The notes under the pieces were generated by a model. The model was given only the letters and a program-made list of their open reading frames with translations, was not told the DNA's origin and did no database searches. A stretch of 64,000 nt of DNA from Akkermansiaceae bacterium (GTDB lineage: Bacteria > Verrucomicrobiota > Verrucomicrobiia > Verrucomicrobiales > Akkermansiaceae), in contig CAJIZY010000013.1 in NCBI GenBank assembly GCA_905181965.1, forward strand, positions 62,001 to 126,000, written 5' to 3'. A program made the position numbers and the translations under genes. The number at the start of each line of letters is the position of its first letter. The first letter of the stretch is position 1. Positions 9,781-52,075 of the stretch are shown piece by piece.

Positions 9781-9783
9781 CGC

Positions 9784-10788: not shown

Positions 10789-10789
10789 T

Positions 10790-11734: not shown

Positions 11735-11740
11735 GGTGGC

Positions 11741-11768
11741 GAGAATTAGTTGCACGCAACAAATTCTC
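11741..11768. promoter_or_regulatory. 28-base near-palindrome, candidate LacI-family operator
   Basis: Arms GAGAATT and AATTCTC (11741-11747, 11762-11768) enclose a second palindrome GTTGC-AC-GCAAC at 11749-11760. One mismatched pair separates them. It ends 6 bases before the aldolase start codon, so it would also overlap the ribosome-binding region. No T-run follows, so it is not a terminator. I infer an operator for the LacI protein encoded one gene downstream. A translational hairpin is the alternative. Confidence 0.55.
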
Positions 11769-11773
11769 AAGAC

Positions 11774-14700
11774 TTAATTCAACGAATCTACCTGAACCCT
11801 GAGGCGCATGAATGTTTTCTCGGAGTCTGAAACAAGCGTATCACCAAAGACCCTCAGAACTACTGTCCCATCGCCATTATCAATTGGGGACTCAACTAGC
11901 CCTGTTTGTTGGGCCCACTCAACCAAATCGCTACCTGCCTCAACAGTCACCACCAAGTCAACCGCATTAGCCTGCGTCCGGTATGTCATAATTTGTCGAT
12001 CAACACCCTCAATCTCCTGAATCGAAACCTTATAGCCTAAGTGCTCATCTGCGATGAAGGGGTCTAATCCCAGCGCATATTCGAAGAGATTACTAAGCGA
12101 ATCTCCATCTAGATCAGCACCAGCGCCAGAAACCAATGGATCAGCCAATTGCGCATCAGTGAAATTTTGATATTTCCAACCTTGGTAAGTGAGTCCCACC
12201 ACAACCGAATCAGCCCCAGGATCCCCTCCAACCTCCTGGCTCACTCCCCAGTTTCGAACTAAGTCAAAATCCTTAAAAGAAGTCCCTGAAGGATCGCGAA
12301 CAATCAGCGAATGCCCCTGATCATCCGCCATCGGAAACCACCCACCCTCATAAGAAAATTCGAGGATATTCTCCCCAACCGAATCAATAATCTGAATTGT
12401 TTCTCCACCATTATTAAGGCTTCCTGAAAATTCTCCCGCCACCGGCAAACCTGATCCAAACCGTAAATCGAAAGCCACTCGGTTGCCCACAACCAAGAGC
12501 CGCTCGCCTTGCAATAGGTCAATCCCGGCACCAAAAGTCATCGTGACACCATCAACAAACTGAACCCCGCTCATCCTTAAAGTTTCTGATCCGGTGTTAA
12601 TCAACTCAATAAACTCGAAATCTGAGGCCGCTAAATTTGGAATTATCGCTAACTCCGCAGCAGTCGGTTCCTTTGGAGCATACAAAATTTCCGCCACCCT
12701 AAGAGCCATTTGAGCTGGCGTCGGATTCCCGGGGAAAGTCAAAGTGTCGATGATCGTTCCGATCTCGTCACTCAGAGTAATAGCCTCCCCACGGGCTGAG
12801 AGTTGACCTTGATAACCACTGACAAGATACCTTTTTTCGTTAGCTTTGGGACTGACTAGACGCGCTCGAAACCCAACTGCTTTCCGACCAACATGAAGGG
12901 TGCCATTCTTAGGAATCACCACTCCTGCTGGAAGAATCATAGAAATACCGCCCGCAAGCTCCCAACCTGAACAGTCAACCGCAAAATTGTTTGGATTATT
13001 TAGAGTAAAATACTCCCCACTTTGATCAACTGAAGCTCCGGAGCTTGCCGGATTAAAATCGACCATCCCAATATTGATCAATGCCGCAGCTGGTTGTCTT
13101 CCAGGCAACTCCCCCAGCCCATAGAGCTGGGCCCTTTTAGTTGGGATATATTCGTTTAGAATCCGATCAGCAGCTGGACGTATCGCGTTTCTATTCCCCC
13201 AAGAACCCCACTTTTGGTAATCGAGATCGGCATCATCTCCTCCTGATCCTGGAGAACTCTTATTTGGATCAATCAAAGCTACCAATTCGTTGACTCGAGT
13301 CGCAAGATAGTCCACCGGAGCCACCGGCGAACCATATATTTGATCCATCAGGGTTCGCACCCTACGCCGGAACATTCCGTTCAAAACAGAATCATCAAAA
13401 ACCAATTTCTTCATCCGATTCGATGGCCCAGCACGAAGATTATTATTCCCAAAAACATCATCAAAGTAAGCTGGACCACTCCGCCAATTCCGTCCTAAGC
13501 ACAGATCAATATCCCACACTAAAGGCCGCCATTCCCCTGTCTTATTCGTATCTCGATAAACGTAATAATTCTTATGTCCGTGATCTCGATTATTGGTCAT
13601 GTCCAGTGCCGCTAGGTAATTGATCAAGCCCGGAATATGCATGTGATCATAACCATATCGAAGCCTCGCTTCGCCGCTCAATCCAAGGCCAGAAACAAGC
13701 GCGGATAAATCTGAATTATTCTCATCCTTACGAGTCTTCTTGTTCACCCCGCTATTTGAGGAATCAAGCCGATTATACATCTTATAGAGAGCTCCCTCGC
13801 CATCAAGATTGACCCTCTCCAAATAACGATTATCGCCATCCTCTACGAGATCTGCCGTACTGAAAAATTGTCCGTTCTGCTGAACTCGAACCGCAAACGA
13901 ATAATGAGCCGGATGCCCAGCCATACGCATGATTTCATATCCAATTGTATTACGAGTTTTTGATTTATCCGCCCAATTAGTAATTAGGTTTATATCCTTG
14001 GCACGCTTTCCTCCATCGTAGGGCAGGAAGCGATCTCCCTTATTAAAGTCAAAATCGAAACTCTTCTTCGGAAAACTACCAGTCGATTGCCCGTGTTTGT
14101 CAGCCTGAATGTTATCGTAAAACTCGCCCCGATAATAAATCGAACCCCGTGATCCGCTATCTCTTTCAGCACCTGAGGGACTCGCGGTGAACCAATGGAG
14201 GACCGGCAAATTAGAACTCACGACCGATGAGTCCTTAGCAATCGTTCCAAAGTATTGTGGGGAATCCCGAGAATCAGGGTAGGGAGGAGCTACCGTATCG
14301 GAGTTTTTAGAATCCGTTGCCGTCACCTTCCAGCGCAGCATCTGACCAGGTAAAAGATCATTTACAGGAATGAGCGCCGTATAAATTCTATCACCCGCCA
14401 AAGTATCGGAGCCAGTGCCATCGTCAACCATCGAGAGATTTACTTCCGAATCATACATAATTCGCCAGGACAGCGTAACTGAGGCAATAGGATTAAGCGT
14501 CCCGACGATCTCACTCTCAATGACCAACCCACCTGCTGCCGGATCGATTGGAGCTAAATCATCAGCCACCATCCGAATAATCGGGCCCAGCTCTGATTCA
14601 CCCGCCGAATTTGCCTCATCAGGTGTTGGCCTTGAAAAATAAGCTTCCTCCAAGGAGCCAGTGACACGAGAGCTCAAGAGCTCAGCGCCAAAAAGGGCAT

Positions 14701-15703
14701 CCGAACTGCTGAGACTCCGGTTTAGCCCATGGATACAGAGGACATTTTCTCCCACATTCAATAGCGTCGTGTTAATCACAAAGTCCTCACCAGCCAAAGC
14801 ATCGGAATCACTATTTGAGGCCGTCGCAGATGATGCGTAATCCAAGACACTCGAGGAGGGGCTATTGGACTCAGCCACAGAATCGGGATTACCATTCAAG
14901 TAGGCCACAAATCCATCATCGTAATTTATCCTTAAAACCAGATTGGAAAAAGCGCTCGGATCCTCCACCCGAAAAGGGATTCTTATATAAACAGTCGTCT
15001 TCTTCGTATAAAGCTCCTCGCGGAGGTCGGTTGCAATAACATCATAATATTGGTCATTATTCGTTTGTCCAAAACCGTGAGGAGTTGCTCCAGAGATCCA
15101 TAATGAATCATCAAAATTTGTTCCAATCCAAGAAGCCAAATTCGCACCATCCTGAACATCATAATCACTGTTGGATGGCACTAGATAAGTTGCATCGGAC
15201 CCTAAGGGAGCCAAGGTTTCAGTTAAAACCTGCTGCTTGAGACCATATGAAACATTCGTCACTTGGATTGGATAAGCTAGACCATAATCTTGCTCCACCG
15301 TCACGCCATCCGGCCGGATGATTCCCAGATATTCTCCGGAAGTTGAAAGCTTGAAATTGGTATGAAGCTCAGCGCCTGAAACCTTGCGGTTTTTATCCGA
15401 AGCAAAAACCACAAGGCTTTGCGAAGGCCCCAATACCAATTCAGGAAAAGCCCACTTGGCAAGATCGTTGCGATCGTCGGTGAGATGCCAGCCTGCAAGA
15501 TCAACAGATGAATTACCCGGATTGTAAATCTCTATCCAATCCTCGTCATCACCATCCTCGTCACGCAAACCTGACTGATTTGACGCCATAAACTCCGAAA
15601 TGACGAGCATCTGCGACTTCGCTACCGGAGTGCCCAACAGAAAACAGAAGACCAAAGACCAGTATCTAAACTTCGTGAAAACTCTAAAATTCTCTCCAAG
15701 CAT
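11774..15703 (-). CDS. Exported lamin-tail-domain / CotH-like multidomain protein
   Basis: About 1,309 residues from ATG 15703, which gives a signal-peptide-like N-terminus (FRYWSLVFCFLLGTPVAKS). Domains in order: lamin-tail domain (about 30-150, ISEFMASN, DWIEIYNPG, LAGWHLTDD), a galactose-binding-like module (about 175-345, YDDGFVAYLNG, GENVLCIHGLN), and a CotH-like region (about 490-800, IYYRGEFYDN, KKSFDFDF, WDIDLCLGRN). Two more lamin-tail modules follow (about 860-1090), and then a C-terminal module with FEYALGLDP and a FMRLRV end. CotH proteins of spore formers are atypical protein kinases whose WD-D motif resembles the one here. Whether this copy phosphorylates anything is unknown. 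The gene heads the sugar catabolic set, so a role at the cell surface in substrate handling is a guess. No frame breaks were seen. Confidence 0.88.
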   Translation of the reverse strand: MLGENFRVFTKFRYWSLVFCFLLGTPVAKSQMLVISEFMASNQSGLRDEDGDDEDWIEIYNPGNSSVDLAGWHLTDDRNDLAKWAFPELVLGPSQSLVVFASDKNRKVSGAELHTNFKLSTSGEYLGIIRPDGVTVEQDYGLAYPIQVTNVSYGLKQQVLTETLAPLGSDATYLVPSNSDYDVQDGANLASWIGTNFDDSLWISGATPHGFGQTNNDQYYDVIATDLREELYTKKTTVYIRIPFRVEDPSAFSNLVLRINYDDGFVAYLNGNPDSVAESNSPSSSVLDYASSATASNSDSDALAGEDFVINTTLLNVGENVLCIHGLNRSLSSSDALFGAELLSSRVTGSLEEAYFSRPTPDEANSAGESELGPIIRMVADDLAPIDPAAGGLVIESEIVGTLNPIASVTLSWRIMYDSEVNLSMVDDGTGSDTLAGDRIYTALIPVNDLLPGQMLRWKVTATDSKNSDTVAPPYPDSRDSPQYFGTIAKDSSVVSSNLPVLHWFTASPSGAERDSGSRGSIYYRGEFYDNIQADKHGQSTGSFPKKSFDFDFNKGDRFLPYDGGKRAKDINLITNWADKSKTRNTIGYEIMRMAGHPAHYSFAVRVQQNGQFFSTADLVEDGDNRYLERVNLDGEGALYKMYNRLDSSNSGVNKKTRKDENNSDLSALVSGLGLSGEARLRYGYDHMHIPGLINYLAALDMTNNRDHGHKNYYVYRDTNKTGEWRPLVWDIDLCLGRNWRSGPAYFDDVFGNNNLRAGPSNRMKKLVFDDSVLNGMFRRRVRTLMDQIYGSPVAPVDYLATRVNELVALIDPNKSSPGSGGDDADLDYQKWGSWGNRNAIRPAADRILNEYIPTKRAQLYGLGELPGRQPAAALINIGMVDFNPASSGASVDQSGEYFTLNNPNNFAVDCSGWELAGGISMILPAGVVIPKNGTLHVGRKAVGFRARLVSPKANEKRYLVSGYQGQLSARGEAITLSDEIGTIIDTLTFPGNPTPAQMALRVAEILYAPKEPTAAELAIIPNLAASDFEFIELINTGSETLRMSGVQFVDGVTMTFGAGIDLLQGERLLVVGNRVAFDLRFGSGLPVAGEFSGSLNNGGETIQIIDSVGENILEFSYEGGWFPMADDQGHSLIVRDPSGTSFKDFDLVRNWGVSQEVGGDPGADSVVVGLTYQGWKYQNFTDAQLADPLVSGAGADLDGDSLSNLFEYALGLDPFIADEHLGYKVSIQEIEGVDRQIMTYRTQANAVDLVVTVEAGSDLVEWAQQTGLVESPIDNGDGTVVLRVFGDTLVSDSEKTFMRLRVQVDSLN

Positions 15704-15947
15704 TTTCTGGGAAACCCTGCCAAATGGACGCTCCGCCCACCTGTTATAAACTGAGTGTTCAATCATCTATAATCGTCGTAAATTTCATTACACAGCTCAA
15801 ATTACTAGTTAGTCGTTAACTGACATCGTCTTCGCTCACCTTTCACCATAATTCTTCAAAAGCCGTTAAAGGAGCGAGCTCTAGAGAAAGTTATACTACT
15901 AGTAAAATTTTCAAGATTGTTCTCCTTAGTGAATCTGGCTTCATCAG

Positions 15948-28281: not shown

Positions 28282-28968
28282 TCAATCCTTTCTTTGGATA
28301 CCTTGGCTTTTCAAAGATTCCCCAGACTCTCGTTTCCCCAGAATTTCGTTCAATACGCGATCTTGTTTCCTCCGCCGTTTTCGAAAAACCCTTTTTTGCT
28401 CCCCTCGGAACCATTTTGCCAATGGAATCAACTGGCCAAAGGCATAACCATCGATGGCGAAGATTTGGCATCTTCCATCCACTTTTACCTGCACGGAAAG
28501 ATTGTCAGGTCGCGCTTCTACAAATACCCAATGCTTGTCGAGCTGTTGCCAAAATTTTTCTAATGCTGCTTCACACTCGGGAGTTAGCCCATGGTGCCAC
28601 ACATATTCTTTGAGCGAGAGAGAAACCTTTCCGTCGAAGTCTGTGATAAGATCCACTTCCAGCACTGGCCCCAAATCTGAATCGACCATTTCATAGGCAT
28701 GAGCCACGAAGTCCCAAGCAGGAGGCCCCACTCGACGAGACAAGACCTGCGAAAAGTGTAACTCTCCCTCATTCTCATGATAATACCACTTTGGACGTAA
28801 GAATCGCGCCACCAAATTTGCCCTCTTCCATCGATCACATTTATGCCATTCCTCGGTCATCAACTTGAGACACCGGTCATTTTTCTCGGGATGGAGATAA
28901 ACCTCACGATGATTCCCATGGGCAAAAGGACGTTGGCCACTCAAACTGATCACTTTTTCAATATCCAT
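28282..28968 (-). CDS. YrbL-family protein
   Basis: 228 residues from ATG 28968 (MDIEKVISLSGQRPFAHGNH). The ATG at 29055 adds a leader with no support. The features match the PhoP-regulated YrbL family, which has a distant protein-kinase-like fold: FAHGNHREVYLHPEKNDRCLKLM at the N-terminus (glycine loop and lysine), and VFVEARPDNLSVQ (like a kinase catalytic loop) followed by FAIDGYAFGQLIPLAKW (like the metal-binding DG). The C-terminus is very basic. Function in cells is not established. It is divergent from the ABC operon at 29062 with 93 bases between. Confidence 0.75.
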   Translation of the reverse strand: MDIEKVISLSGQRPFAHGNHREVYLHPEKNDRCLKLMTEEWHKCDRWKRANLVARFLRPKWYYHENEGELHFSQVLSRRVGPPAWDFVAHAYEMVDSDLGPVLEVDLITDFDGKVSLSLKEYVWHHGLTPECEAALEKFWQQLDKHWVFVEARPDNLSVQVKVDGRCQIFAIDGYAFGQLIPLAKWFRGEQKRVFRKRRRKQDRVLNEILGKRESGESLKSQGIQRKD

Positions 28969-29061
28969 AAACGCCCCGAAATGGCAAGATATCCCCCATT
29001 GCAAATTTTCTCTTTTTTGTAACAGGCCATTTGTCTGCCTGCTATACATACTCACAAAGTC

Positions 29062-30213
29062 ATGTCTTCAAAAACGAAACTCCTTTCTACCATCGCACTC
29101 CTTGTTTTCGCGCTAGCTATCGCGATCTTTTTTATTTTTCGTAATGATAACCCTATTAAAAACGTCCTCACCGCAGAGCAGCTCTCCCGTTTTGAGGAAG
29201 GCATGTTTTATCGGACAATAGTCAGCTCAACAGTTCAGGGACAAGTCGAAGATAGAAATTGGGGTGTCGGGAAGAAAATCACCCTCATTCACGAAGGCGA
29301 GACCGATTTTGTTCGCGAAGTAAAATCCGTTACCAAGGATCATACCGAAGTCGTGGTCGGCTTGGAAATTCTCACAGCCCGCGACCTTGAAGTCAAACTG
29401 GCTCTTGATGACGTGGATCTCCATCTCCCACCGGCGGTCGGCATTCTAGGCAGAGGAGCGCGAAAAATCTTACTTCCCGGCCCGGAAGGTATCGCAATCG
29501 ACATCGCCACTGATCGCGCCGCGGAATGGTTGAAAAGCGACATCAATCGCCAAAAAGTTCTCTCGCGGATTAATTTTGCCGTTAAAGGCATGACCGGGCA
29601 AGGCCTCGAAGAACACCTCCTCGAGGCTAAGCTCCAACCCCTTGAAGCCTATGAAGGTCTTACAGCTGAATACACCTACGAAGCCGGTGAGGGGCTCGTT
29701 GATTTTCAAACTAAGGCCACCCTTTCTAAAGAGAGGGAAGATCGGGTTAAAAACTTTTCAGTCTACAGTGAAGCTTACCTTCTTCCTGATACTGATCCCA
29801 ATGGTCCAGATGAATGGGATGTTGATGTCAAGACCATCGCCCACCTGCTGGCGCCCAGTAACGATCTTGATGTCAGCGGCACCCTGACCTTGAAGCGCGA
29901 TTCAACCTACGGTGATGAAACACGCCTAAAAATCGTGAAAGGTAAGGTTGTCTTTTCCGGCTCCACCGACAAAAACCAAGTGCTCGGAACTTGGGCCGCG
30001 CGCGGCTCCCTTTATTATAACTTGAAGACTCACAGCATTGTCGAAGGCAACCTAACCGGAGAAGTCTCGCTCGAAAGAAAGAGTACTGACCACGTTCTCT
30101 TTGAGAAAAATTTTAAAACTAAACCCAGCTACCGTATCATTATAAAAGGTTACGCTACCAAAGACCCTACCGAAGCCCGCAAAGAAATTACTGGCGAGAA
30201 AACAGAGCGATGA
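29062..30213 (+). CDS. Membrane-anchored hypothetical protein, first gene of the ABC operon
   Basis: 383 residues. One N-terminal helix (LLSTIALLVFALAIAIFFIF) anchors a large extracytoplasmic domain. That domain is beta-rich and polar, with a helical part near 150-185 (DRAAEWLKSDINRQKV). It resembles nothing I can name. The stop overlaps the ABC start (ATGA at 30210), so the gene is coupled to the transporter. It could be a periplasmic adaptor or substrate-handling subunit. Confidence 0.85.
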   Translation: MSSKTKLLSTIALLVFALAIAIFFIFRNDNPIKNVLTAEQLSRFEEGMFYRTIVSSTVQGQVEDRNWGVGKKITLIHEGETDFVREVKSVTKDHTEVVVGLEILTARDLEVKLALDDVDLHLPPAVGILGRGARKILLPGPEGIAIDIATDRAAEWLKSDINRQKVLSRINFAVKGMTGQGLEEHLLEAKLQPLEAYEGLTAEYTYEAGEGLVDFQTKATLSKEREDRVKNFSVYSEAYLLPDTDPNGPDEWDVDVKTIAHLLAPSNDLDVSGTLTLKRDSTYGDETRLKIVKGKVVFSGSTDKNQVLGTWAARGSLYYNLKTHSIVEGNLTGEVSLERKSTDHVLFEKNFKTKPSYRIIIKGYATKDPTEARKEITGEKTER

Positions 30214-31880
30214 TTAAGAGCGCAATTGGTTTGCAAATTGAGGGGCTCACGATTCGTCAGAATGACCTTACGATTCTTGACCACCTCTCACTCCATCTCG
30301 AGGCTGGTTCGCTGACCGGGCTCATCGGACCGAGCGGAGCAGGTAAAACAACCCTACTTCGAACTCTTGGACTGCGCCCCCCCAGCAAAAAGAATAAAGA
30401 TCTCGGAATCGTTTCCATCATTGCAGGAACCGAGGCCACCCGGATTTCTGGAGCCAATCACCAGTCTCTTCTTGAAATTCTATCCTATGTTCCTCAACAA
30501 GATCTTTTCCCGGATTACGCCAAAGTCGGCGAGGTCCTTGAAGAAGCACTGATCTTCTCCGGTCACGATGCCAGTCCTCTTTCAATTCTAGAATCTGTTA
30601 ACCTTTCAAAGGATTTTCTTGGAAAGACTGTTTCGCAACTTTCCGGCGGAGAAAGGCGCCGTCTCTCTCTGGCTCGGGCCCTTTGCTCCGGCCCTCGCAT
30701 TCTTCTACTCGATGAACCCACAAGTGGCCTTGACCTACCGGTAGCCTACGAAGTAATGCAGCTTTTACGGGGGCTTTGTGATCGCCACAAACTAACCATC
30801 GTGGTCACCAGCCATCTACCCGGAACACTTGCAGTTTGCGATCGTGTCCTCGTAATGGAGAAAGGGGGAAGACTGAGAGCGGATTACCAAGATGTCCCAA
30901 CGTGGCTTACCACCACTGCTGAAGCAGATCTATTTGAAAAAAGCACCTCAATTACACCAATCAAATCTTTTGACTATATCGACTCTAATGAGGCCAGTCG
31001 TGATTGGTGGAACCTCCATCACTTCGGAGTGATATTCCGACGCTCTGCCCGCCAGTCTTTCCGTGACTACGGAGCCGCGGGCGTCACCATCATCCTACCC
31101 ATTTTCCTGGCCGGGCTGATCGTATTCGCGCAATCACTTCACGGAAATAACAGCCCTCGCTTCATTAACTTCTTCCTTTCGATCGCAGCTCTATGGATTG
31201 GAATGTCGCTAACGATCCGGGAAATAATTTCAACCCGTGCGCTTTACGCGATTGATGAACTCAGTGGACTTGGGAAATTCTCCTTTTTTTATGCCAAATC
31301 CGCCTTTGCTACCTTAATGGTGCTTTTTAGTACTCTCCTTCTTTGCGTCTCAACTTGGTTCTTTGTTTCGCTTTTTAACATCGACCCAAACGCAGTGGAA
31401 TCTTCGGACTGGTTCGACGCTCGTGACTTCATTTCGCACTTTTTCGTACTAGGAATAGTCTGCTTCTCGGGAACCATGATCGGTCTTTTACTGTCGACCC
31501 TAGCCCGCTCCGAGCGGGGCGCCGTTACCATGATGCCTATCGTTCTCCTTCCCCATGTTCTTCTCAGTAAATACGCCACTGGCTTTGCTGGAGAAGCGAA
31601 CGACGCGCGCCTTACCCATCCCTTCCACAGTCTTGATTTGAATGAGATAGACTACTCCGGCTTCACCTTAATCGAACAAGGGAATTTTTGGAGTAGTCTC
31701 TTCGCCTCCACTCGACACGCCACCTCAGTTTTTGATCAACTGGGTTCCGCTCGATTTTCCTTCAGCCAGATTTTTGGACTGGATTTTTGGGCTTTAATCA
31801 TTCTTGTCACTAGTCAGGCGCTTCTGACTCTCATCATCTTCTGCTATTCCGCAAACTCTGCCATCCGACGAATCAAATGA
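30210..31880 (+). CDS. ABCG-like ABC transporter, ATPase fused to ABC2 permease
   Basis: 556 residues in ABCG order. The nucleotide-binding domain (about 8-230) has Walker A GPSGAGKTTLL, signature LSGGERRRLSLARAL and Walker B ILLLDEPTSGLD with the H-loop at VTSHLPG. The permease (about 265-556) has six or so helices, including TIILPIFLAGLIVFAQSL, INFFLSIAALWIGMSLTIREI, and a loop with YAIDELSG. One copy would form a homodimer. The neighbours in the operon have no family, so the substrate cannot be told. Confidence 0.93.
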   Translation: MIKSAIGLQIEGLTIRQNDLTILDHLSLHLEAGSLTGLIGPSGAGKTTLLRTLGLRPPSKKNKDLGIVSIIAGTEATRISGANHQSLLEILSYVPQQDLFPDYAKVGEVLEEALIFSGHDASPLSILESVNLSKDFLGKTVSQLSGGERRRLSLARALCSGPRILLLDEPTSGLDLPVAYEVMQLLRGLCDRHKLTIVVTSHLPGTLAVCDRVLVMEKGGRLRADYQDVPTWLTTTAEADLFEKSTSITPIKSFDYIDSNEASRDWWNLHHFGVIFRRSARQSFRDYGAAGVTIILPIFLAGLIVFAQSLHGNNSPRFINFFLSIAALWIGMSLTIREIISTRALYAIDELSGLGKFSFFYAKSAFATLMVLFSTLLLCVSTWFFVSLFNIDPNAVESSDWFDARDFISHFFVLGIVCFSGTMIGLLLSTLARSERGAVTMMPIVLLPHVLLSKYATGFAGEANDARLTHPFHSLDLNEIDYSGFTLIEQGNFWSSLFASTRHATSVFDQLGSARFSFSQIFGLDFWALIILVTSQALLTLIIFCYSANSAIRRIK

Positions 31881-33095
31881 GCAAACTCGACCCCATCGAT
31901 AATGGAGTCCGGCGCTTCCGACCGGGATTAATGATGGCACTCTGCGTCTTCGTCTCATTTTGGTCAGTTGCACCAATTTTTTCAAAAGGTTCAAAATAAG
32001 CAGAGTGATTCCGATCCACCCCTCCCAACTACCAAAATCAGCGAAGAGATTGAGAGGATCCGGGGTGACTTGGATCCTCCGCCCACCCCACCATCTATCC
32101 ATCCACTCGAGGGAAACCGCCGGCTCTTTCTCGCTGATGGCTGTCTCTACCGCTATCAGGAGCTCAGCTTTACCCGTAATTTTAGCTATCAACACAATCA
32201 TCCCGGAGCGGTCATTCGCGAAGGTGATCCTTGCCTCTGGAAGCTCGTAGGAATCTCCGGAAAAAAAGATGTTTACCAGATCTTTTGCGCCGACCCTAAT
32301 TTTCCTGATCTTCACGAACACAACCTCACTTACACTCGTTTCCAGGAAGACGGTGTCCCACAGAATGACCATAGTCCCTTTATTACTCTCCATGACCACG
32401 ACTACTGCGAATGGCAGATCCGCAAAGCAGGACCCAAGGACCAATACGAAGTATATTGCCTTAGCGGAAACAGCCCATTTAAAGACGCCAGCCTCGCTTG
32501 GACCGACAAGCAAGAGGATCTCTCCTCAAATTTAATCTCCGCCACCCTCGGAGAAAACGGTAATCCTTCCTGGTGGATTCTCCCAGAAGGACAAAGCCCA
32601 AAAATCCCGCACCGATCCTCTCACATGATTGTCATGAATCGGGGTCGGATTATGCATCAAGACGATTCATTGGAAGATTTTAAAAAACACGGCCCCGAAA
32701 TCTTCCGTGTTCAACTCAAAACAGCCGACGATAAATTTGTGAGAGCTGCGGGAGCGCTTAATTATGTCCAGCTTGTAAAGGCGATTCGTAATTTTGACCC
32801 TGTCGTCAACCACCCTGATTTTCCAGCACTCATTGGGATGAATCCTTTAGCTCTTCTCGAGGGAGATATTTCACTGAAACGTGAAAATCCGATGTTTCCC
32901 TTTATCATCCCGCTCAAAGTGGCGCTCTACCCACATCTCATTCAAGAAATTAAGATGGAGAATACAAAATTTTGGAAAAACGATTGGGAAACCCTTGAGG
33001 ATTTTCAAAGCCACCTCGACGAATCTGATATTGCCGACGGACGCGTCTATCAAGGCACTAGGTTCACCTACATATTTATTTCATGGGACCCATGA
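31877..33095 (+). pseudogene. Membrane-anchored orphan with a CxW internal repeat, one frameshift
   Basis: ATG 31877 overlaps the ABC stop. The frame MSKLDPIDNGVRRFRPGLMM... runs into a hydrophobic anchor (ALCVFVSFWSVAPIF) and stops soon after. Deleting one T of the T6 at 31977-31982 gives FQKVQNKQSDSDPP and continues to 33095 (about 405 residues). An internal ATG at 31968 would make a protein lacking the anchor. The soluble part shows two similar pieces, CLWKLVGISGKKDVYQIFC and CEWQIRKAGPKDQYEVYC, and later PSWWILPEG. This spacing is like beta-trefoil repeats, but that is a guess. The C-terminal half is helical and unassigned. Confidence 0.75.
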
Positions 33096-34378
33096 AGCGG
33101 CTTGCGAGAAAAACGCAGAAGAAGACGCAAACAAACAGTTATAAGCAGATCAGCGAGATGGAACCTAAATTGACCAAATATTGGTTCGCTATCTACGTGC
33201 TCGCCGCCCTGTTAATACTTGGCGGTTTTTTAAATCTCGGCATCCATCTTGGACCAAAATTAGAGATATGGTTATTGGCAAAGCTTGTTCCAGAAGTTTG
33301 GCACTCGGCGGTCGATGACCTCATTCATCGGCTTTTCTTTGAAGAATTTCGGACATTCCTTGTCACCACCGGTTTTGGGCTTGGAATCATTATTGTTGGA
33401 ATGACTCTCTTTCCCCTGAAAGAAAAACTCTCGACGATTTATGAATTAGAACGGTTTCCTGAAATCAAAAAACAACGCCACCCTCCCCTCTGGCGTCAGG
33501 GTTTGGAGGAGGTGAAGCTAGCTTTTCTCTATCTTCTACTACAAGGAATGAGCCTCTTTCTAGCCGTCCAAGGCTATCCTTTTTTAGCGGCTCTTGGCGC
33601 GACTCTCTCAATTGCCTACCTTGTTACCGCGATGGCCTTGGACCATTGTTCACCATTTTTTCAGCGCCGTAATCACAAGATCCATGGCATTATCTGGATC
33701 CTTCTACGGCACGCGCCCTTACGCACTACTCTGCTTGGTCTTATCTGCATCGGTCCCGTTATTATTCTCGAGCGCCACCTTTCAGCGTCACTCGAACCAA
33801 CAGCCGCGATCGCTATTCTCGTCTTTACTGAGGTTCTTGGAATGGCCTGCGCCACTCTTCTTGGGTGTCATCTAGGTTCTGCTCTCCTAAAAAAAGAAAC
33901 TACCCTTTTCAGCCAACATCCTCCAAAATTTTGGACCTTTTCCTACCGGATTACGGTTTGCATTCTCGCCGTTTGGCTCGGAGTATTTTTTAGCTGGTGG
34001 GGAAACGGCATATACACTCATTACCAAATTATGAGATGCCAATACCAACCTCTCTGGAAAAAGACCAAATTCAAGGTCCGAGGAACCAAAGCTCTGATCA
34101 GCCTTCCACTGCGAATTCAAAATGAATCGTCCAAACCCCTCGACGTTGGCAAACTCCAAATTGGCATGGAAGGCGAAGGCATCCTCGACGGAGAGGTCCT
34201 CCTAGCCGGATCAAGCATCCAGACCGGTGAAACCTCTATTGTTTTGTTGAATTTTGAAGCTCAGCTCACGGAGGAAGCGCTTTCGGACCTTCCCCGCTTT
34301 CTCAAAGCCGAATATTCCGCACATCTGAAATTTGAGCCTCCTCTCTCTACGCCAATCACTCTGGAACTTTTTCCGTAA
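33092..34378 (+). CDS. Six-helix membrane protein with C-terminal Ig-like domain
   Basis: 428 residues from ATG 33092, which overlaps the previous stop (ATGA). A basic leader (KRLARKTQKKTQ) precedes about six membrane helices (for example AIYVLAALLILGGFLNLGI, TTGFGLGIIIVGMTLF, LLGLICIGPVIIL, ITVCILAVWLGVFFSWW). A helical middle (YPFLAALGATLSIAYLVTAM, then DHCSPFFQRRNH) is faintly like EI24/CysZ proteins. The last 110 residues look like a periplasmic beta domain (RIQNESSKPLDVGKLQIGMEG). The last gene of the operon. Function unknown. Confidence 0.85.
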   Translation: MKRLARKTQKKTQTNSYKQISEMEPKLTKYWFAIYVLAALLILGGFLNLGIHLGPKLEIWLLAKLVPEVWHSAVDDLIHRLFFEEFRTFLVTTGFGLGIIIVGMTLFPLKEKLSTIYELERFPEIKKQRHPPLWRQGLEEVKLAFLYLLLQGMSLFLAVQGYPFLAALGATLSIAYLVTAMALDHCSPFFQRRNHKIHGIIWILLRHAPLRTTLLGLICIGPVIILERHLSASLEPTAAIAILVFTEVLGMACATLLGCHLGSALLKKETTLFSQHPPKFWTFSYRITVCILAVWLGVFFSWWGNGIYTHYQIMRCQYQPLWKKTKFKVRGTKALISLPLRIQNESSKPLDVGKLQIGMEGEGILDGEVLLAGSSIQTGETSIVLLNFEAQLTEEALSDLPRFLKAEYSAHLKFEPPLSTPITLELFP

Positions 34379-34638: not shown

Positions 34639-35043
34639 ATGTCCAGCGGAATTAGCGTCGTTTGCGAGCCCGAAATTGAAGATCTTGAGGGTTATTTTGA
34701 GGAATTGGCAGCAGTTTATGAAGAACTGGCTGGCGTAGCCGTTGAACGTATCGTTCGTGGGGAACTTTTCTGTCCAGACAGCGATCTTTCCGAAGAAGAA
34801 GCTGACGCTGCCGGGTATACCAAAGAAGACAAGGCGGTCATGAAAATCATTGTGACCGAAGATTTCCATGACGCCGACGAAGTTTACGATGATATTAATA
34901 CGGCCGCAGATCTAATCCGCACGATGGATGATGAGATTTTTGAGAATGGTAAAGAGGCTCTCATCCAAGATCTCGAAAGCCTCGCCGAAACACTCGAGAT
35001 TCCTGTCGAAGAGAAAGTCACCGTGCAACTTCTCCGAGCGTAA
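34639..35043 (+). CDS. Acidic hypothetical protein, 134 aa
   Basis: A soluble, strongly acidic protein with many Glu and Asp residues and mostly helical composition (EPEIEDLEGYFEELAAVYEEL, quoted in part; DADEVYDDINTAADLIRTM; EALIQDLESLAETLEIP). No signal peptide, cysteine pair or catalytic motif. It stands alone between the ABC operon and a strong terminator. Not a family I recognise. Confidence 0.75.
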   Translation: MSSGISVVCEPEIEDLEGYFEELAAVYEELAGVAVERIVRGELFCPDSDLSEEEADAAGYTKEDKAVMKIIVTEDFHDADEVYDDINTAADLIRTMDDEIFENGKEALIQDLESLAETLEIPVEEKVTVQLLRA

Positions 35044-38239: not shown

Positions 38240-40450
38240 TTACTTCATGCTAAAGTGAATCGAGCTCCGAGATTCACCATTTTCCATGCGGGTGTGAGCC
38301 GTCATGTCGTCGAATTGGGCCAAGGCTGCAAGAAGCTTCTCAACCAATGGAAGGTTCTCATTAAAGTCATCGCGCATGTATTCGTTTTCAAATATTTCCT
38401 CGGAGTTTTCTTTGAGGAGCTTGACCCAATAATCGGCCATTTCGCGAGCCGCTGAAAAATTTATGCGCGTGTAACTTCCTTTACGAACAGGAACCTCGCC
38501 ACCAGCGACTAGATTTTTATCGATCTCAGCAATCAATTTTTGCGACGTCGAAAAGTAGAAGTGTTTATCAGACAACCCTACCACTGGACGAGCGTCCTTG
38601 GTTGAAAACTGAATCGCGGTGCTATAATAAGTCACCCCTTCCTTTGTATTATCATCAAATTCTTGCATAGGAATCTCAGTTCCCTGAACCTCTTTGAGGT
38701 TTTTGAGGATATTGCTGATTGAGCCCTCGAGCTTTTTCCAGGCCGTCGAGATTTTTTCACGATCTATCACAGGAGTTACGTAGGCAATACGAGGAATGAG
38801 CCCCTTTTCAATGATCACTCCCGGGACTTCCGGAACGCGAGGAAGGGTTCCTCGGGTGTCGATAATCAGCGCGCCTTCATCACCAGTTCCTTGGGCCCAA
38901 TCAGTCGTCAGGGCTTCCCAAATATTTTTGAGGTCCCCTGCTGCCAACTCGTCGAACATTTTGAAGGCTTCGCGAAATTCTGGAATATCTCGGATGCCTT
39001 CATACTCAATATCAGCGACCCTTGATGCCATTAGGTAAGTCGCCTGACCCAGTGAATCCATCATATCATGCAACTTAGAGGTGAACTCGGGATTCGATCG
39101 GCTATTGCTAAAGAAGACGACACCATCCATGTCACCCAGCCCAGCAAAATTGTGAGTAGTTTCAGTATCGATAGAGGCAAGATTACTTCCACCATGGCTT
39201 TCGATTTTAAAACCATCTTCAATGAAGCCCACCGTGCCAGTGCGGCCGTATTCGAACATATCGAAAATCTTGCCCTCGACTCTAGCAACGTGCCCAAGAA
39301 GGGCCTGAATGTCGCGGGTGTCGCCAAATGAGTCAGCCTCGGCAAGTCCAGCCTTCAACCCCTTAGCCATCGATGACATTACTTCGTTTGCTCCTCCAAT
39401 GGTTTTCATAGCTTCCTCCTCACCGAAGACTAACATCCGGATATCCTTATCGAGGTAGTCCTTCAGGAAAGACATACCCTCGTTTGCCAAAAGCGAATCT
39501 TCGGGCTTTGCTGGAAATTTTAACCCATCGAGAGAATCACCGAGATAAACGATGATGTAGCTCTCCTTTACACCGATTACGATGTTGAGATTCTTTTTGG
39601 CTACGGCGGCCAATAAGCGGTCAACCATAGCCCGCGATCCGAAAAACTCGGTCATCTCCTGCCTGGAGTTTTCATCAGCTAAATCGGCCAATTTCTTTCC
39701 GTTGATGGTCATGCCATTTAGGGCAACACCATCTTTTTCCATCTCGATTTCGTCAAAGGGAGCATTTTCGTCCAAGTCGAAAAGAGAAAGTATACCGCCA
39801 ATCATCATCTCAGAAATTTGGGTGCGCATCTCTTCGTCGCTAACCTTAAAACCAATTGTTACAGGAGGCATATGTGACTTCTCCAAAATCTGAACACCCG
39901 CCTCCGGATCACCCAAAATTGAGCCGAACATTGACATCGCGAGACCCTGCATTTGCGCTCCGCCTGGCTCGGATTCCTCATCCATGGCCAAAGCAGCCAT
40001 CTCCACCATCATTTTCATTTGATGAAAGGAAGCCGAACTGTTGATCGCTTGAAGGTTAAGAGCTTGATCACCAGTGGTGTCACCAAAGGCCGCGAAAATC
40101 TCCTCACCCACTACCGCTTTAAACATTTGGAACTCTTGATTCTCCTCAAGTTCATCGAGATTCTCGCCTTGATCAGCCATCATTTCAGACATGACCTTAC
40201 CCAGCTCAGTTTTTAAAAGGCGCTGGTACATGTCGTAACCTCCCAAAATTGAAAAATACCCCTCCGTGTTCTTGGGAAGGTGAGCGGCGAACCCCATTTT
40301 TTTGACGACACCCTCTGACATTGCTAGGCCAGTTGATGCTTCGGTTGATTCATTTTTGATCAAACGAGTTGCTGGATCTCCTAAAGACGGAAGGGCAAGG
40401 CAGGCTCCCGCTACTGCGTTGAGAAGGATTGCTTTAACTTTAAATTTCAT
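38240..40450 (-). CDS. Large secreted hypothetical protein, 736 aa
   Basis: Starts MKFKVKAILLNAVAGACLALPSLG, a signal peptide. The protein is long, methionine-rich and acidic, with alternating helical and strand segments (for example AFGDTTGDQALNLQ, NLNIVIGVKESYIIVYLGDS, GVTYYSTAIQFSTK). The layout resembles DUF3352-like exported proteins, but I cannot confirm this by eye. No catalytic motif or repeat stands out. A terminator at 38178-38212 ends its transcript. Function unknown. Confidence 0.8.
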   Translation of the reverse strand: MKFKVKAILLNAVAGACLALPSLGDPATRLIKNESTEASTGLAMSEGVVKKMGFAAHLPKNTEGYFSILGGYDMYQRLLKTELGKVMSEMMADQGENLDELEENQEFQMFKAVVGEEIFAAFGDTTGDQALNLQAINSSASFHQMKMMVEMAALAMDEESEPGGAQMQGLAMSMFGSILGDPEAGVQILEKSHMPPVTIGFKVSDEEMRTQISEMMIGGILSLFDLDENAPFDEIEMEKDGVALNGMTINGKKLADLADENSRQEMTEFFGSRAMVDRLLAAVAKKNLNIVIGVKESYIIVYLGDSLDGLKFPAKPEDSLLANEGMSFLKDYLDKDIRMLVFGEEEAMKTIGGANEVMSSMAKGLKAGLAEADSFGDTRDIQALLGHVARVEGKIFDMFEYGRTGTVGFIEDGFKIESHGGSNLASIDTETTHNFAGLGDMDGVVFFSNSRSNPEFTSKLHDMMDSLGQATYLMASRVADIEYEGIRDIPEFREAFKMFDELAAGDLKNIWEALTTDWAQGTGDEGALIIDTRGTLPRVPEVPGVIIEKGLIPRIAYVTPVIDREKISTAWKKLEGSISNILKNLKEVQGTEIPMQEFDDNTKEGVTYYSTAIQFSTKDARPVVGLSDKHFYFSTSQKLIAEIDKNLVAGGEVPVRKGSYTRINFSAAREMADYWVKLLKENSEEIFENEYMRDDFNENLPLVEKLLAALAQFDDMTAHTRMENGESRSSIHFSMK

Positions 40451-47384: not shown

Positions 47385-47629
47385 AGAGATCCTAAAGTCT
47401 CCCGTTAAAAGATTCCTCAGACAACTGAATTCGGAAACAAAGCTGAATGGGGAAGAGCCGACGGGGTGGCGACTCACGCAAAAAAATCAGGGCAACTGGC
47501 TTGGGGTATCAAAAAGGGATGCCCGGGCCGTTGAGGCCACAAAGCACCCTCATCCAAAATGGGAGCTTTCTATTCGAACGTAAATTGCGACGATCCGAGC
47601 GCTATTCTCTTTGGAACAAACAACTGGCC

Positions 47630-50600
47630 ATGACGTCCACTCCGAATCTCTTAATCTCTTTTCTCAAAACTCTAATCTTTTGCGTGAGCCTCGTCACCCT
47701 TCTGCCTAAGGGGGCTCTCGCAGATCTACAAATTACTGAGTTCATGGCGGCCGCTGATTCGAACTTTCCCGACACTACAGGGGCTCCGTCCGATTGGGTT
47801 GAGATCAGTAATACCGGCGCCGAAACAGTTTCTTTAAAGGGTTACTTTTTGACTAACAATACAGCAGATCTGACGAGGTGGGCCTTTCCTCATGCGCAAA
47901 TCGAGGCAGGCGGATCATTACTCGTTTTTGCATCAGGAAAAACACAAGGGCCTCCTGAAACTAAAGAGCTTCACACCAACTTCACTTTGGACCGTGGAGG
48001 CGATTACCTCGCCCTAATCGCTCCGGACGGTGTTACGGCCGTAAGTGAGTTCAAACCCATCTATCCGGAGCAATTCCTAGGCATTTCATACGGCTTCGGG
48101 TTCTCTGGGGCCAACACCCAGGAAACCCTGGTTAAACGTGACGGAGAGGCAAAATATTTTATCGCGAGTGATGATTCCCTCGGCGACACGTGGAAAAAAG
48201 CACCCTCAGAATTCGATGATTCGGGCTGGGCAAATGCCACCGCCGGGCTGGGCTTCGAAGTACTAGGAGGAACCCTCGAACAAATCATCTCAACGAACAT
48301 TGCCGGTGAAATGAAATCAGTAAACGCCAGCGGTTTCTTTCGCTTTCCTTTTCAATTTGATATGGAAGAGAAAGAGATCATTTCGCTTCAGTTGAAGATT
48401 CACATTGACGATGGATTTGTCGCTTATCTGAACGGCACGGAAGTTGGAAGCTTTCGCAAGCCACTTGACTTACAGTGGAACTCCACTGCGACTAGCAGCC
48501 CCAGCCGCAGTGATACAGAAACGGTCAACAGCGCAATCATCATCGATATCACCACATTTAAGGAGTCTATCAAGGATGGAGAGAACATCCTCGCGATTCA
48601 AGGAATGAACCGCACGTCAGGAGGGTCCGACTTCGTCATTGATGCCGAACTGCTAGCAGATGTAAGAGAAACGACCAGCAGTTTACGGCAAGGCTACTTT
48701 GAAGATCCTTCACCGGGGCTACCAAATAGTACGGTTAAAAACTCTCCTCCCGCACAAGTCGATTTTTCGGTCCTCAGTGGGCTTTTTACCGAGAATTTCC
48801 AAATCGAATTGAGCAGCTCTACACCCGGCGTGGTGATTCGTTACACCACCGACCTAACTATCCCTACGAACACTGCAGACAATCCCTCTCCAATCTACAC
48901 CGGTCCAATTAAGATCACGGAAAGTATGCAGATCCGTGCACAAGCATTTCTGAATGACTCGCTCGATGGAGAGGTTCGGACCGAAACATTTCTTAAAATG
49001 TCAGGAGACGTCCCGGCATTTTCCTCTGATTTACCGGTGGTCATCCTTTCGACGCTCGGCACGGGGCCTCCTCCGGGAACCTCGTCGACAAAACGGAAGA
49101 CAGCTTTCATGTTCTTTTTCGAGCCTGATCCAGAAACAGGACGAACAGTCCTGACTCAGAGTCCCGCTCTCACGACCCGAGCTGGAATTCGACGGCGCGG
49201 CTCTAGCTCGGGCGGATGGCCTAAGTGGTCCTTGTCAGTCGAGACCTGGCGCGACGGTGACGATGAAGACCGAAATATCAAACCATTCGGGATGCCAACC
49301 GAGGCAGACTGGGTCCTGGGTGCCCGCTATGAATGGGACCTTGCTCTCATGCGTAATCCGTTCGTCTACGAGATCAGTCGACAAATCGACCGCTACGCAC
49401 CCCGCACCCAGTTTGTCGAAGTCTTCGCCGACACCACCGGCTCAGCAATTTCTGATAATGATTATTTCGGGGTCTACTCTCTCATTGAGAAAATTGAAAT
49501 GGACAAAAACCGCGTGGATGTTGCGCGGATTAGGCCATGGGAAGATAGCGAACCGAAAATCACCGGGGGGTATATTTTCAAAAATGACCGCCCAGATCCA
49601 GGCGAGCCCACGATTAACGTGAGAGGAATGGGCCAGATCACCCTTGTTGACCCTGATGGGGGCGAGATTTCGGGATCCCAGAGATCTTGGCTCATCAATC
49701 ACCTCAATAACTTTGACCGAGCAGTAGTTAATCATCCTGAAGGGATCAATCCGACAACTGGATTACACTATTCCGATTACATCGATGTCGACTCTTGGAT
49801 CGACCACCATTGGCTGAATATTATGGTGATGAATATCGACTGGGGGCGTCACAGCGCATTTTTCCACAAGGATAGAAGCGGCAAAATTGTTTCCGGTCCA
49901 GTCTGGGACTATGATCGGGCTCTCGGCTGTGAAGACGTGCGCGACAACCAACCACGAGCTTGGGAGGGCGTTGTTAACGCCGTTGGAACGGTTTCAAGCA
50001 AGACTTGGTTTGATGCACGCTTCCCTTGGTATGGACATTTGCTGGGTCCGAACGCCAACCCGGCGCAGGCAAACTATCCCGATATCCGGCAGCGTCATAC
50101 CGATCGATGGTTCGACCTTCGTAAGGGTGAATTTTCGATCAGAAATCTTCATGCTGTAATCGATTCGATGGCGGATGAGATTCGTGAATCCCAAGCCCGT
50201 AATTTTGAGCGCTGGAAGCAGTATCCTCCAAATGGAGGGAACTTTTCTGATCCAGATTTAACTGGTTGGGAGGCTGAGATTTCGCATATGAAAAATTGGC
50301 TAGGGGCACGAACCGAATGGGTCGACGCACAGTATCTCAAGCCGCCAGTTTTCAATACAGCCGCCGGAGTAGTCGACCCGGGATTCCAACTAGTAATGGG
50401 CTCCCCTGATGGTCAAATTTTTTATACGACCGATGGGTCGGACCCGCGGGCTCCCGGTGGTTTACCCACCAGCGAGTCAGTCCCATTTCAGGGCGGCCCA
50501 GTCGAAGAAATCCTAATCGATATCAATGCCGCGGGACGATACCTTGTCCCCGAGGATGACACCCTCGGCCTGACCTGGACCGAAGCTCCTGGAACTTTCG

Positions 50601-52075
50601 ACGATTCCACATGGAAGACGGCCACCAACGGGGTGGGCTTTGAAACCTCAGGAGGAATTTCAGAACTTATCTCCACAAATATCCGGGAAGAGATGAGATC
50701 AATTAATGCCAGCTGCTACCTCCGCCTCCCCTTTAATTTTGATAATACTGAAAACGTCAACTCGATTACTCTCACCGTTTGGTCCGATGATGGCTTCGTT
50801 GCTTATCTCAACGGCAGAGAAGTTGGTTCTCTGCTCAAGCCTTCACCTCTGATGTGGAATAGCAGAACCGATGGTGGCAAAGGATTCCCGGGCGGTGATA
50901 CCGCGGTTTTAAATGCTCCGATCGTTCTTGATCTTACCCCGTATCAAGACCAACTGCAGAACGGTGGAAATGTCATCGCCCTTCATGGCATGAATAGCTC
51001 CCCCGGGGGGTCAGATTTTTTGGTGCGTTCTCTACTCTCGATAAATCACAACATCTCTCCCACCCCCGTCACCATAAATCGAACCGAGGTTTTAACAGCA
51101 CGCACCTTCGACGGCTCGCAATGGAGCGCCCCGGAGCAAGTCGCGATGATCACCTCAGACGCACTGGCCAATGGCTCAAACTTGGTCATCTCCGAGATCA
51201 TGTTTCGACCTCTACCTCCAGATAAAGAAGAAATCGCAGCAGGCTTCAACTCGCGGGATGATTTTGAGTTTCTTGAGCTTTTCAACATCAGCGATAAGCC
51301 GGTCGCGATCGTTGGGATTATCTTTTCCGACGGAATCGAATTCGACTTCAACAATAGTCCGATCAAAATTCTCAAACCCGGTGCACGCGGGTTGCTCGTC
51401 AATGATCAAGCGGCCTTTGAATTCCGCTATGGCACCAGCCTCACCACGCGCATTCTCGGCGAATTTCAAAATGGGACCAAGCTGAAGAACGAAGGCGAAC
51501 GGCTGTCGATCTCCGCGCTTAATGGGGAAAGCATACGTAACTTCGCCTACGACAATAAAGCTCCGTGGCCCTCAACCACCGAAGAAGGTGGTTTCAGCTT
51601 GGTTCTGCGGGACCCAAAAACTAATCCCGATCACAAGCTTGCTGAGAATTGGCAACTCAGCACAGCACTTGGTGGCACCCCTGGCAGCCCTAGCACCGCC
51701 GATGATCTAAACTTCGACACTTGGGCAGATGCTTATGGAAATCCCGCCCCCCAGTCTGATCATGATTTTGATGGCCGCGTTGCCCTAATCGAGTATGCCA
51801 TGGGCACTAATCCAACGATCTCCGACTCGGTCGTTCCTCAGTTGGAGACTGGCGAATTCCTAACATTTTTGTTTCGTAAGAATTCACTAGCCGAAGACCT
51901 CACCCTCACTCTCGAGCAGTCTGTAGATCTCAAAAATTGGGTCGAAGCGAGTGATATGTTTACCCTTATTGGGGAGCCACACAACATCGATGGCACCACA
52001 ACTTTAATCTACCGCTCAACATCTCCCAAAACCGAAGGCCCCCTCTTTCTTAGGATGCGGGCTATTCTTCAATAG
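47630..52075 (+). CDS. Exported lamin-tail / CotH-like protein with duplicated galactose-binding-like modules
   Basis: About 1,481 residues from ATG 47630, which gives a signal peptide ending LLPKGALA. The 61 codons before it are rejected. Order: lamin-tail domain (about 30-130, ITEFMAAADS, DWVEISNTG), galactose-binding-like module (about 165-355), chitobiase-C-like domain (about 365-455), CotH-like region (about 470-830, RRGSSSGGWPKWSL, VWDYDRALGCED), second chitobiase-C-like stretch (FYTTDGSDPRAPGG), a second galactose-binding-like module, another lamin-tail domain (ISEIMFRPLPP) and the verrucomicrobial C-terminal module (IEYAMGTNP, end FLRMRAILQ). The two galactose-binding-like modules are an internal duplication: both have a DDS/DDT start, DDGFVAYLNG, and GENI/GNVIA-HGMN. 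CotH kinase activity is possible but unproven. Confidence 0.9.
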   Translation: MTSTPNLLISFLKTLIFCVSLVTLLPKGALADLQITEFMAAADSNFPDTTGAPSDWVEISNTGAETVSLKGYFLTNNTADLTRWAFPHAQIEAGGSLLVFASGKTQGPPETKELHTNFTLDRGGDYLALIAPDGVTAVSEFKPIYPEQFLGISYGFGFSGANTQETLVKRDGEAKYFIASDDSLGDTWKKAPSEFDDSGWANATAGLGFEVLGGTLEQIISTNIAGEMKSVNASGFFRFPFQFDMEEKEIISLQLKIHIDDGFVAYLNGTEVGSFRKPLDLQWNSTATSSPSRSDTETVNSAIIIDITTFKESIKDGENILAIQGMNRTSGGSDFVIDAELLADVRETTSSLRQGYFEDPSPGLPNSTVKNSPPAQVDFSVLSGLFTENFQIELSSSTPGVVIRYTTDLTIPTNTADNPSPIYTGPIKITESMQIRAQAFLNDSLDGEVRTETFLKMSGDVPAFSSDLPVVILSTLGTGPPPGTSSTKRKTAFMFFFEPDPETGRTVLTQSPALTTRAGIRRRGSSSGGWPKWSLSVETWRDGDDEDRNIKPFGMPTEADWVLGARYEWDLALMRNPFVYEISRQIDRYAPRTQFVEVFADTTGSAISDNDYFGVYSLIEKIEMDKNRVDVARIRPWEDSEPKITGGYIFKNDRPDPGEPTINVRGMGQITLVDPDGGEISGSQRSWLINHLNNFDRAVVNHPEGINPTTGLHYSDYIDVDSWIDHHWLNIMVMNIDWGRHSAFFHKDRSGKIVSGPVWDYDRALGCEDVRDNQPRAWEGVVNAVGTVSSKTWFDARFPWYGHLLGPNANPAQANYPDIRQRHTDRWFDLRKGEFSIRNLHAVIDSMADEIRESQARNFERWKQYPPNGGNFSDPDLTGWEAEISHMKNWLGARTEWVDAQYLKPPVFNTAAGVVDPGFQLVMGSPDGQIFYTTDGSDPRAPGGLPTSESVPFQGGPVEEILIDINAAGRYLVPEDDTLGLTWTEAPGTFDDSTWKTATNGVGFETSGGISELISTNIREEMRSINASCYLRLPFNFDNTENVNSITLTVWSDDGFVAYLNGREVGSLLKPSPLMWNSRTDGGKGFPGGDTAVLNAPIVLDLTPYQDQLQNGGNVIALHGMNSSPGGSDFLVRSLLSINHNISPTPVTINRTEVLTARTFDGSQWSAPEQVAMITSDALANGSNLVISEIMFRPLPPDKEEIAAGFNSRDDFEFLELFNISDKPVAIVGIIFSDGIEFDFNNSPIKILKPGARGLLVNDQAAFEFRYGTSLTTRILGEFQNGTKLKNEGERLSISALNGESIRNFAYDNKAPWPSTTEEGGFSLVLRDPKTNPDHKLAENWQLSTALGGTPGSPSTADDLNFDTWADAYGNPAPQSDHDFDGRVALIEYAMGTNPTISDSVVPQLETGEFLTFLFRKNSLAEDLTLTLEQSVDLKNWVEASDMFTLIGEPHNIDGTTTLIYRSTSPKTEGPLFLRMRAILQ

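Follow-up and report, generated by a model that had tools for sequence, protein, structure and literature searches.

Rv1747 of Mycobacterium tuberculosis is an ABCG-type ATP-binding cassette (ABC) transporter that carries an FHA domain and is associated with the kinase PknF (PMC3908365, PMC5549992). Transporters of this FHA-ABCG type are important in cell-envelope biology, but their substrate and partners are unsettled. Here, a four-gene operon (genes g1 to g4; coordinates 29062–34378, + strand) built around an ABCG-type transporter gene was analysed in a 64,000-nucleotide (nt) stretch of DNA, hereafter the window, from an Akkermansiaceae bacterium (GenBank accession number CAJIZY010000013.1; positions 62,001 to 126,000). 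The source assembly (GCA_905181965.1) is 2.64 Mb in length and 62% complete, and the organism is a marine relative of Akkermansia.

Like Rv1747, the product of g2 is an ABCG-type polypeptide with a nucleotide-binding domain (NBD) and a transmembrane domain (TMD), and distant homologues of g2 in the phylum have an N-terminal FHA domain and, in some cases, kinase genes as neighbours. However, g2 itself has no FHA domain and the operon no kinase gene, and the likeness to Rv1747 is one of architecture and not of directly compared sequence. The Rv1747 operon has been described as two genes, for the kinase and the transporter, with no g1-like gene. As both the FHA domain and the kinase are missing, the locus was not classed as Rv1747-type.

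A second likeness is to the DO-GTPase/GAP1-N2 systems (Kaur et al. 2020, PMC7159879), as distant relatives of the g1-g2 pair adjoin double-GTPase-like, GAP1-N2-like and kinase genes. However, none of the components of these systems was found in the window, and because the operon includes neither a GTPase nor a GAP1 gene it was not assigned to them. The word ‘ABC’ occurs nowhere in the text of that paper, in which these systems are defined (PMC7159879), and the link, if true, would provide a membrane component for systems known mainly from computation.

The eukaryotic ABCG transporters White and CDR1 share with g2 an NBD that precedes the TMD in one chain, an ABC2_membrane permease and a similar NBD, whereas the system in the window is bacterial and includes anchored partner proteins. 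The NCBIfam model for the White family (TIGR00955) matched g2 over the NBD only, with a score of 105 bits against a cut-off of 736 bits.

The transporter gene and its anchored partner

The operon consists of four co-directional genes, with the following features:

29062–30213, + strand: g1, encoding 383 amino acids (aa) with a single N-terminal membrane anchor (residues 7–25) and a beta-rich outer domain
30210–31880, + strand: g2, encoding a 556 aa half-transporter of ABCG order, with the NBD at residues 23–172 and the permease at residues 272–455
31877–31999, + strand: 5′ part of g3, with the start codon and the membrane anchor, closed by a stop after 40 codons
31974–31979 (approximate), + strand: the extra base that breaks g3, placed in a T run by DNA alignment
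31968–33095, + strand: body of g3, encoding a duplicated Cys-containing module and a C-terminal domain
33083–34378, + strand: g4, encoding 428–431 aa, in which seven hydrophobic segments precede a soluble C-terminal domain of ~120 aa

Genes g1, g2 and g4 are each open over these coordinates. ATGA overlaps were found at 30210 (g1/g2) and 33092, and an ATGA is also present at 31877. The initial annotation of this region had described a four-gene operon with an ATGA at each of three junctions, and the co-directional genes and the three ATGA sites were all confirmed, but g3 is not one frame and two frames had been joined unnoticed. The further claim that this coupling is the tightest in the window needs correction in that ATGA-type overlaps are not confined to the operon; four other 4-base overlaps occur (8956, 22781, 26165 and 46015). 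Translation of g4 may begin at 33083 (MG..., present in several relatives) instead of at 33092.

The protein encoded by g2 includes ABC_tran (PF00005; residues 23–172) followed by ABC2_membrane (PF01061; residues 272–455), both above cut-off, which agrees with the ATPase-permease in ABCG order recognised in the initial annotation; the arrangement of NBD before TMD in one polypeptide is that of an ABCG-type half-transporter. All of the catalytic motifs are intact, namely GPSGAGKT (Walker A), VPQQD (Q-loop), SGGE (signature), LLLDEP (Walker B) and SH (H-loop), and the motif positions are nearly all invariant among 13 orthologues. Hydropathy, the only method used here, identified five clear hydrophobic segments where the ABCG type expects six helices. 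The protein presumably works as a homodimer. No FHA domain was detected on g2 using Pfam, and ABC_tran already begins at residue 23. Among the operon genes and the scanned neighbours, no Ser/Thr kinase (Pkinase), DO-GTPase gene or GAP1 protein was found, and PADLOC analysis of the operon returned generic ABC ATPase matches to g2 only.

Relatives of both g1 and g2 were found well outside the genus. In genome G373, an ABC protein shares 30% identity with g2 over 500 aa (E 7e-48) and a g1 relative shares 25% identity with g1 over 172 aa (E 2e-17). A permease-only profile led to 26 other genomes, and the neighbourhoods of 13 of these matches were read. When the 510 open reading frames (ORFs) of 13 distant ABC loci were searched using a g1 profile built from the genus of the window only, seven ORFs were detected at E ≤2e-7, each of which immediately precedes the ABC gene in the same orientation with a gap of 2–18 nt, and two weaker matches lie in the same place. 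A broad g1 profile matched 12 of 337 genomes of the phylum (window included), and all 12 matches adjoin an ABC gene, though this figure is partly circular because nine are training members, one (G295) comes from the same ABC loci and one is the window. The sole prospective find, in genome G380, has an ABC gene 8 nt downstream. In the window and in 11 further phylum genomes, a g1-family gene thus immediately precedes an ABC gene on the same strand, with a gap of ≤18 nt. Another scan for g1, within the class to which G373 belongs, identified no additional genomes.

An FHA domain above the Pfam cut-off was found on nine of the 14 distant ABC proteins (loci L070 and L106–L113), six of the nine having a g1 partner; Pfam found none on those of L102–L105 and L129. 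At seven of the 11 distant loci with g1, a kinase, DO-GTPase-like or GAP1-N2-like gene is located nearby. Among these neighbours are a kinase that carries Sel1 repeats (L070), DO-GTPase-like genes (L104, L105 and L109), fusions of a kinase to a DO-GTPase-like region (L106 and L107) and GAP1-N2-like genes (L109, E 0.003; L129, E 0.016; L107, E 0.06). All DO-GTPase and GAP1-N2 matches are under the curated Pfam cut-offs, and they are mutually consistent in position and context.

As homologous pairs often carry FHA domains and kinase, GTPase or GAP1-N2-like neighbours, g1 and g2 represent a lineage-specific form, lacking FHA, of a pair made up of an FHA-ABCG transporter and its partner; the transporter itself is of a known kind. 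No description of the g1-ABC pair was found in the open-access literature, and the g1 partner family of the phylum appears to be undescribed. The initial annotation had left g1, g3 and g4 unassigned. Profile searches bore this out, as nothing significant was found for any of the three in Pfam or NCBIfam, none belongs to a PADLOC family and a PDB sequence search with their profiles returned nothing credible, but g1 and g2 are now seen to belong to a pair that occurs across the phylum. The comparison of gene order that it had proposed gave, within the phylum, a divided answer, with the four-gene order kept in the genus only and the g1-g2 order extending far beyond it.

Several further observations were made at the distant loci. 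The fusions in L106 (coordinates 8529–12017) and L107 (coordinates 8401–11715), which combine a protein kinase and a double-GTPase-like region in one chain beside the FHA-ABC gene, also adjoin a ‘QxFYG’ protein that is GAP1-N2-like in L107. Genes for patatin-like phospholipases were seen near g1-ABC/GAP1-like loci in L109 (coordinates 2459–3466) and L129 (coordinates 14665–15771). The g1 relative in G107 (L111; coordinates 1–200), which lies at the edge of the contig, opens with a long GGNQ repeat.

Hydropathy identified one N-terminal hydrophobic segment in g1. The AlphaFold model has a mean predicted local distance difference test (pLDDT) score of 53.5, and no TM-score in the Foldseek list exceeds 0.35. 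In this low-confidence model, long antiparallel strands with helices packed on them recall LolA-type and MTP/lipovitellin carriers, and the lipid-binding beta-barrels that it resembles are those of MTP, lipovitellin, LIMP-2 and LolA. However, no sequence relationship of g1 to LolA, MTP or lipovitellin was found and the confidence of the model is too low to assign it. Matches to ApoB/lipovitellin, autotransporter and FadL-like barrels (Z up to 9.9) were also too unspecific for a fold to be assigned, and the g1 profile gave a weak PDB match to a SAVED protein (E 0.009 over 65 positions). The modelled strands and packed helices are taken as a hint of the lipid-carrier kind only.

Genes 3 and 4 and inheritance of the operon

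The g3 product carries a single anchor and a Cys-Trp module in duplicate, at residues ~108–158 and ~166–214 of an intact orthologue, and the two repeats are supported by hhalign (probability 95%, E 3e-8). A beta-trefoil fold was considered and dropped, as a third repeat was unsupported. The AlphaFold model of g3 (mean pLDDT 36.7) was unusable for a fold search; the structure searches that the initial annotation had called for thus gave matches for g1 that were too unspecific to assign and nothing usable for g3. Hydropathy of g4 revealed seven hydrophobic segments, against the six or so helices counted previously, and a C-terminal soluble domain. The initial annotation had read this end of the protein as Ig-like, which is a putative assignment. 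The soluble domain is predicted to be outside, given a positively charged N-terminus inside. Profiles for g3 and g4 had no match in the 336 other phylum genomes of the 337 scanned, the only matches being in their own genome, and these genes are therefore restricted to the genus within this set.

The single anchors proposed for g1 and g3 are both present, but that of g3 is out of frame with the body. The frame from the ATG at 31877 closes after 40 codons, and the body is read in the +1 frame, which is open from 31968. Anchor and body share one frame in all 11 relatives with sequence across this site, and DNA alignment with these relatives showed the window to have a single additional base within a run of T at about 31974–31979; the split was seen in the window genome only. 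The extra base may be a mutation or an assembly error. Besides the extra base, many differences from the nearest relatives were seen within ~25 bases of the g3 anchor (31955–31985), denser than in the surrounding sequence.

Homologues of the operon genes were found in 12 other genomes, with 68–96% identity between g2 orthologues. All belong to a single Akkermansiaceae genus, and the named relatives with the operon are Akkermansiaceae/Verrucomicrobiales metagenome-assembled genomes. The order g1-g2-g3-g4 is kept in 10 of 10 relatives with contigs that reach g4 (in two of which the contig ends inside g4), and in the remaining two of the 12 the contig ends within g3. The flanking genes are syntenic in most relatives. 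The g1/g2 overlap is present in all relatives and the g2/g3 overlap in all except L042, and in L041 ~490 nt separate g3 from g4. Pairwise ratios of non-synonymous to synonymous substitution rates (dN/dS) were 0.06–0.15 for g1 and g2 and 0.13–0.27 for g3 and g4, indicating that the operon genes are under purifying selection. Together with the homologues in 12 genomes, these ratios show that the operon is not a chance arrangement of reading frames.

Of 26 genus members, 13 were found to be without g1, and one more (G003) has a g1 fragment. In G003, a deletion of ~4.4 kb has fused the initial 104 codons of g1, interrupted by two in-frame TAG stops, to the last 83 codons of g4. This remnant is located at 6209–6764 of L071, and G003 is a close relative of G022, which has the intact operon. 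In G004, the 294 bases between ispD and a gene for a 134 aa protein (L165; reverse complement, 10004–10298), a site that is otherwise empty, contain short stretches of DNA from g1, from the g1/g2 junction and from the g4 end. At the corresponding site in G024, 100 bases long, no operon remnant was found. On a tree of a flanking protein, in which some branches are long, the presence of the operon requires five changes, and one old gain followed by several losses fits this pattern. Order and loss are thus both shared: the operon is passed on, and lost, as one unit, and it is dispensable.

The remnants in two relatives, together with the single base that splits g3, raise the possibility that the operon is decaying in the window genome, with a real frameshift and a machine that is non-functional there. 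This explanation, which is compatible with an export role elsewhere, is conceivable though doubtful. The body of g3 is without clear relaxation (dN/dS of 0.27 and 0.23 when compared with the two nearest relatives, and 0.20 between these relatives themselves), g1, g2 and g4 are intact, and one-base errors in T runs are also common in assemblies. An intact g3 may be missing from the machine in the window genome.

Possible function of the operon

We favour, with modest confidence, an interpretation in which the operon encodes an envelope export machine round an ABCG-type half-transporter, with g1 as its constant outer partner and g3 and g4 as further envelope parts. A fused NBD and TMD is taken as the sign of an exporter, and Rv1747 has been implicated in the export of a cell-wall component (PMC3908365). 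In the proposed scheme, g2 would hydrolyse cytosolic ATP and move a compound, predicted to be a lipid-like envelope compound, either out of the inner membrane or across it. The g1 protein, fixed beside g2, would probably receive or gate this hydrophobic compound outside, as a periplasmic acceptor or gate, and g3, with its anchor and with its Cys modules outside, and g4, with its outer domain, probably belong to this complex as additional envelope components. In other lineages of the phylum, the pair would often be under cytosolic control via the FHA domain of the transporter and adjoining genes for Ser/Thr kinase, double-GTPase-like and GAP1-N2-like proteins, and in the Akkermansiaceae lineage g3 and g4 may replace these missing inputs. 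The initial annotation had proposed that the four proteins form one machine that senses, moves or modifies an envelope substrate, which is supported in part. The four genes do travel and are lost together (order kept in 10/10; remnants in G003 and G004), but the g1-g2 pair is wider than the operon, and of the three activities export is the best supported.

A number of points weigh against an export machine of this kind. The operon includes no gene for a substrate or its biosynthesis, contact among the four proteins is putative, and g1 is rare outside the genus (11 of 336 genomes). The g3 and g4 genes evolve faster than g1 and g2, and thus could be accessory. The lipid reading of g1 is weakened by the pLDDT of its model, by the TM-scores and by ordinary outer-membrane barrels, which match the g1 model about equally well (VIA-align).

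A broader proposal can be put forward only tentatively. In this proposal, g1 would be an undescribed dedicated outer partner of FHA-ABCG transporters, the pair would be the membrane output of kinase/DO-GTPase/GAP1-N2 signalling in Verrucomicrobiota, and the window would carry that output uncoupled and re-equipped with two new envelope proteins. A constant outer partner, and a natural version of the transporter that is FHA-less and kinase-less, would offer a way to ask what is moved and what phosphorylation adds.

The same distant neighbours, including DO-GTPase-like and GAP1-N2-like genes and the kinase/DO-GTPase-like fusions, could instead indicate a role in conflict or defence, with the g1-ABC pair as a membrane module of DO-GTPase/GAP1-N2 systems and the operon as a derivative that, for example, alters the envelope on infection. 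GAP1-N2 systems are membrane-proximal and present in verrucomicrobiae (PMC7159879), and the patchy presence and repeated loss in the genus resemble those of defence genes. However, all of the DO-GTPase and GAP1-N2 matches fall under curated cut-offs, no GTPase, GAP1 or effector domain was found among the neighbours of the operon in the window, the PADLOC matches of g2 are those of a generic ABC ATPase, and the strong conservation of g1 and g2 (dN/dS ~0.1) is unlike that of fast-changing effectors. This role is therefore considered unlikely.

Self-protection or drug efflux, in which the transporter would extrude a hydrophobic compound in ABCG fashion with g1, g3 and g4 as accessories, appears similarly improbable. 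The NBD does resemble those of CDR1 and White-type transporters and the distribution, with its losses, is that of an accessory system, but no biosynthetic or resistance genes were found among the scanned neighbours, and an outer partner kept across the phylum would suit an envelope substrate better than broad efflux. Least likely of all is mechanotransmission or sensing without transport, in which ATP hydrolysis by g2 would move the outer domains of g1, g3 and g4; the overlapping genes and the large soluble domains predicted outside in three of the four proteins would suit such a device, but the ABC2_membrane permease of g2, above cut-off, is an exporter domain, no partner enzyme that it could drive was seen, and MacB/FtsX-type devices have a different membrane fold.

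Surrounding genes

On the 5′ side of the operon are ispD and an L,D-transpeptidase-like gene, together with a YrbL-like gene in divergent orientation (PF10707; coordinates 28282–29055), which is located 6 nt from the start of g1. The YrbL-like gene is at the same place in L031–L036, in degraded form in L035, and was not found in L038–L042. We take PF10707 to be a kinase-fold family; the gene is outside the operon.

On the 3′ side, a conserved gene for a 134 aa protein (coordinates 34639–35043), which belongs to no Pfam family above cut-off, is followed by genes on the opposite strand that include those for a HAD hydrolase and a vWA protein. The 134 aa gene is present at the site with or without the operon. 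It was considered as a fifth operon member and rejected, as it is kept in four genomes without an intact operon (G003, G004, G007 and G024). A gene for a 736 aa protein of no Pfam family (coordinates 38240–40450), found in 25 of 27 genus members, lies beside those for the vWA protein and HAD hydrolase. The window also encodes two CotH-kinase proteins of very large size that carry lamin-tail domains (coordinates 11774–15766 and 47447–52075).

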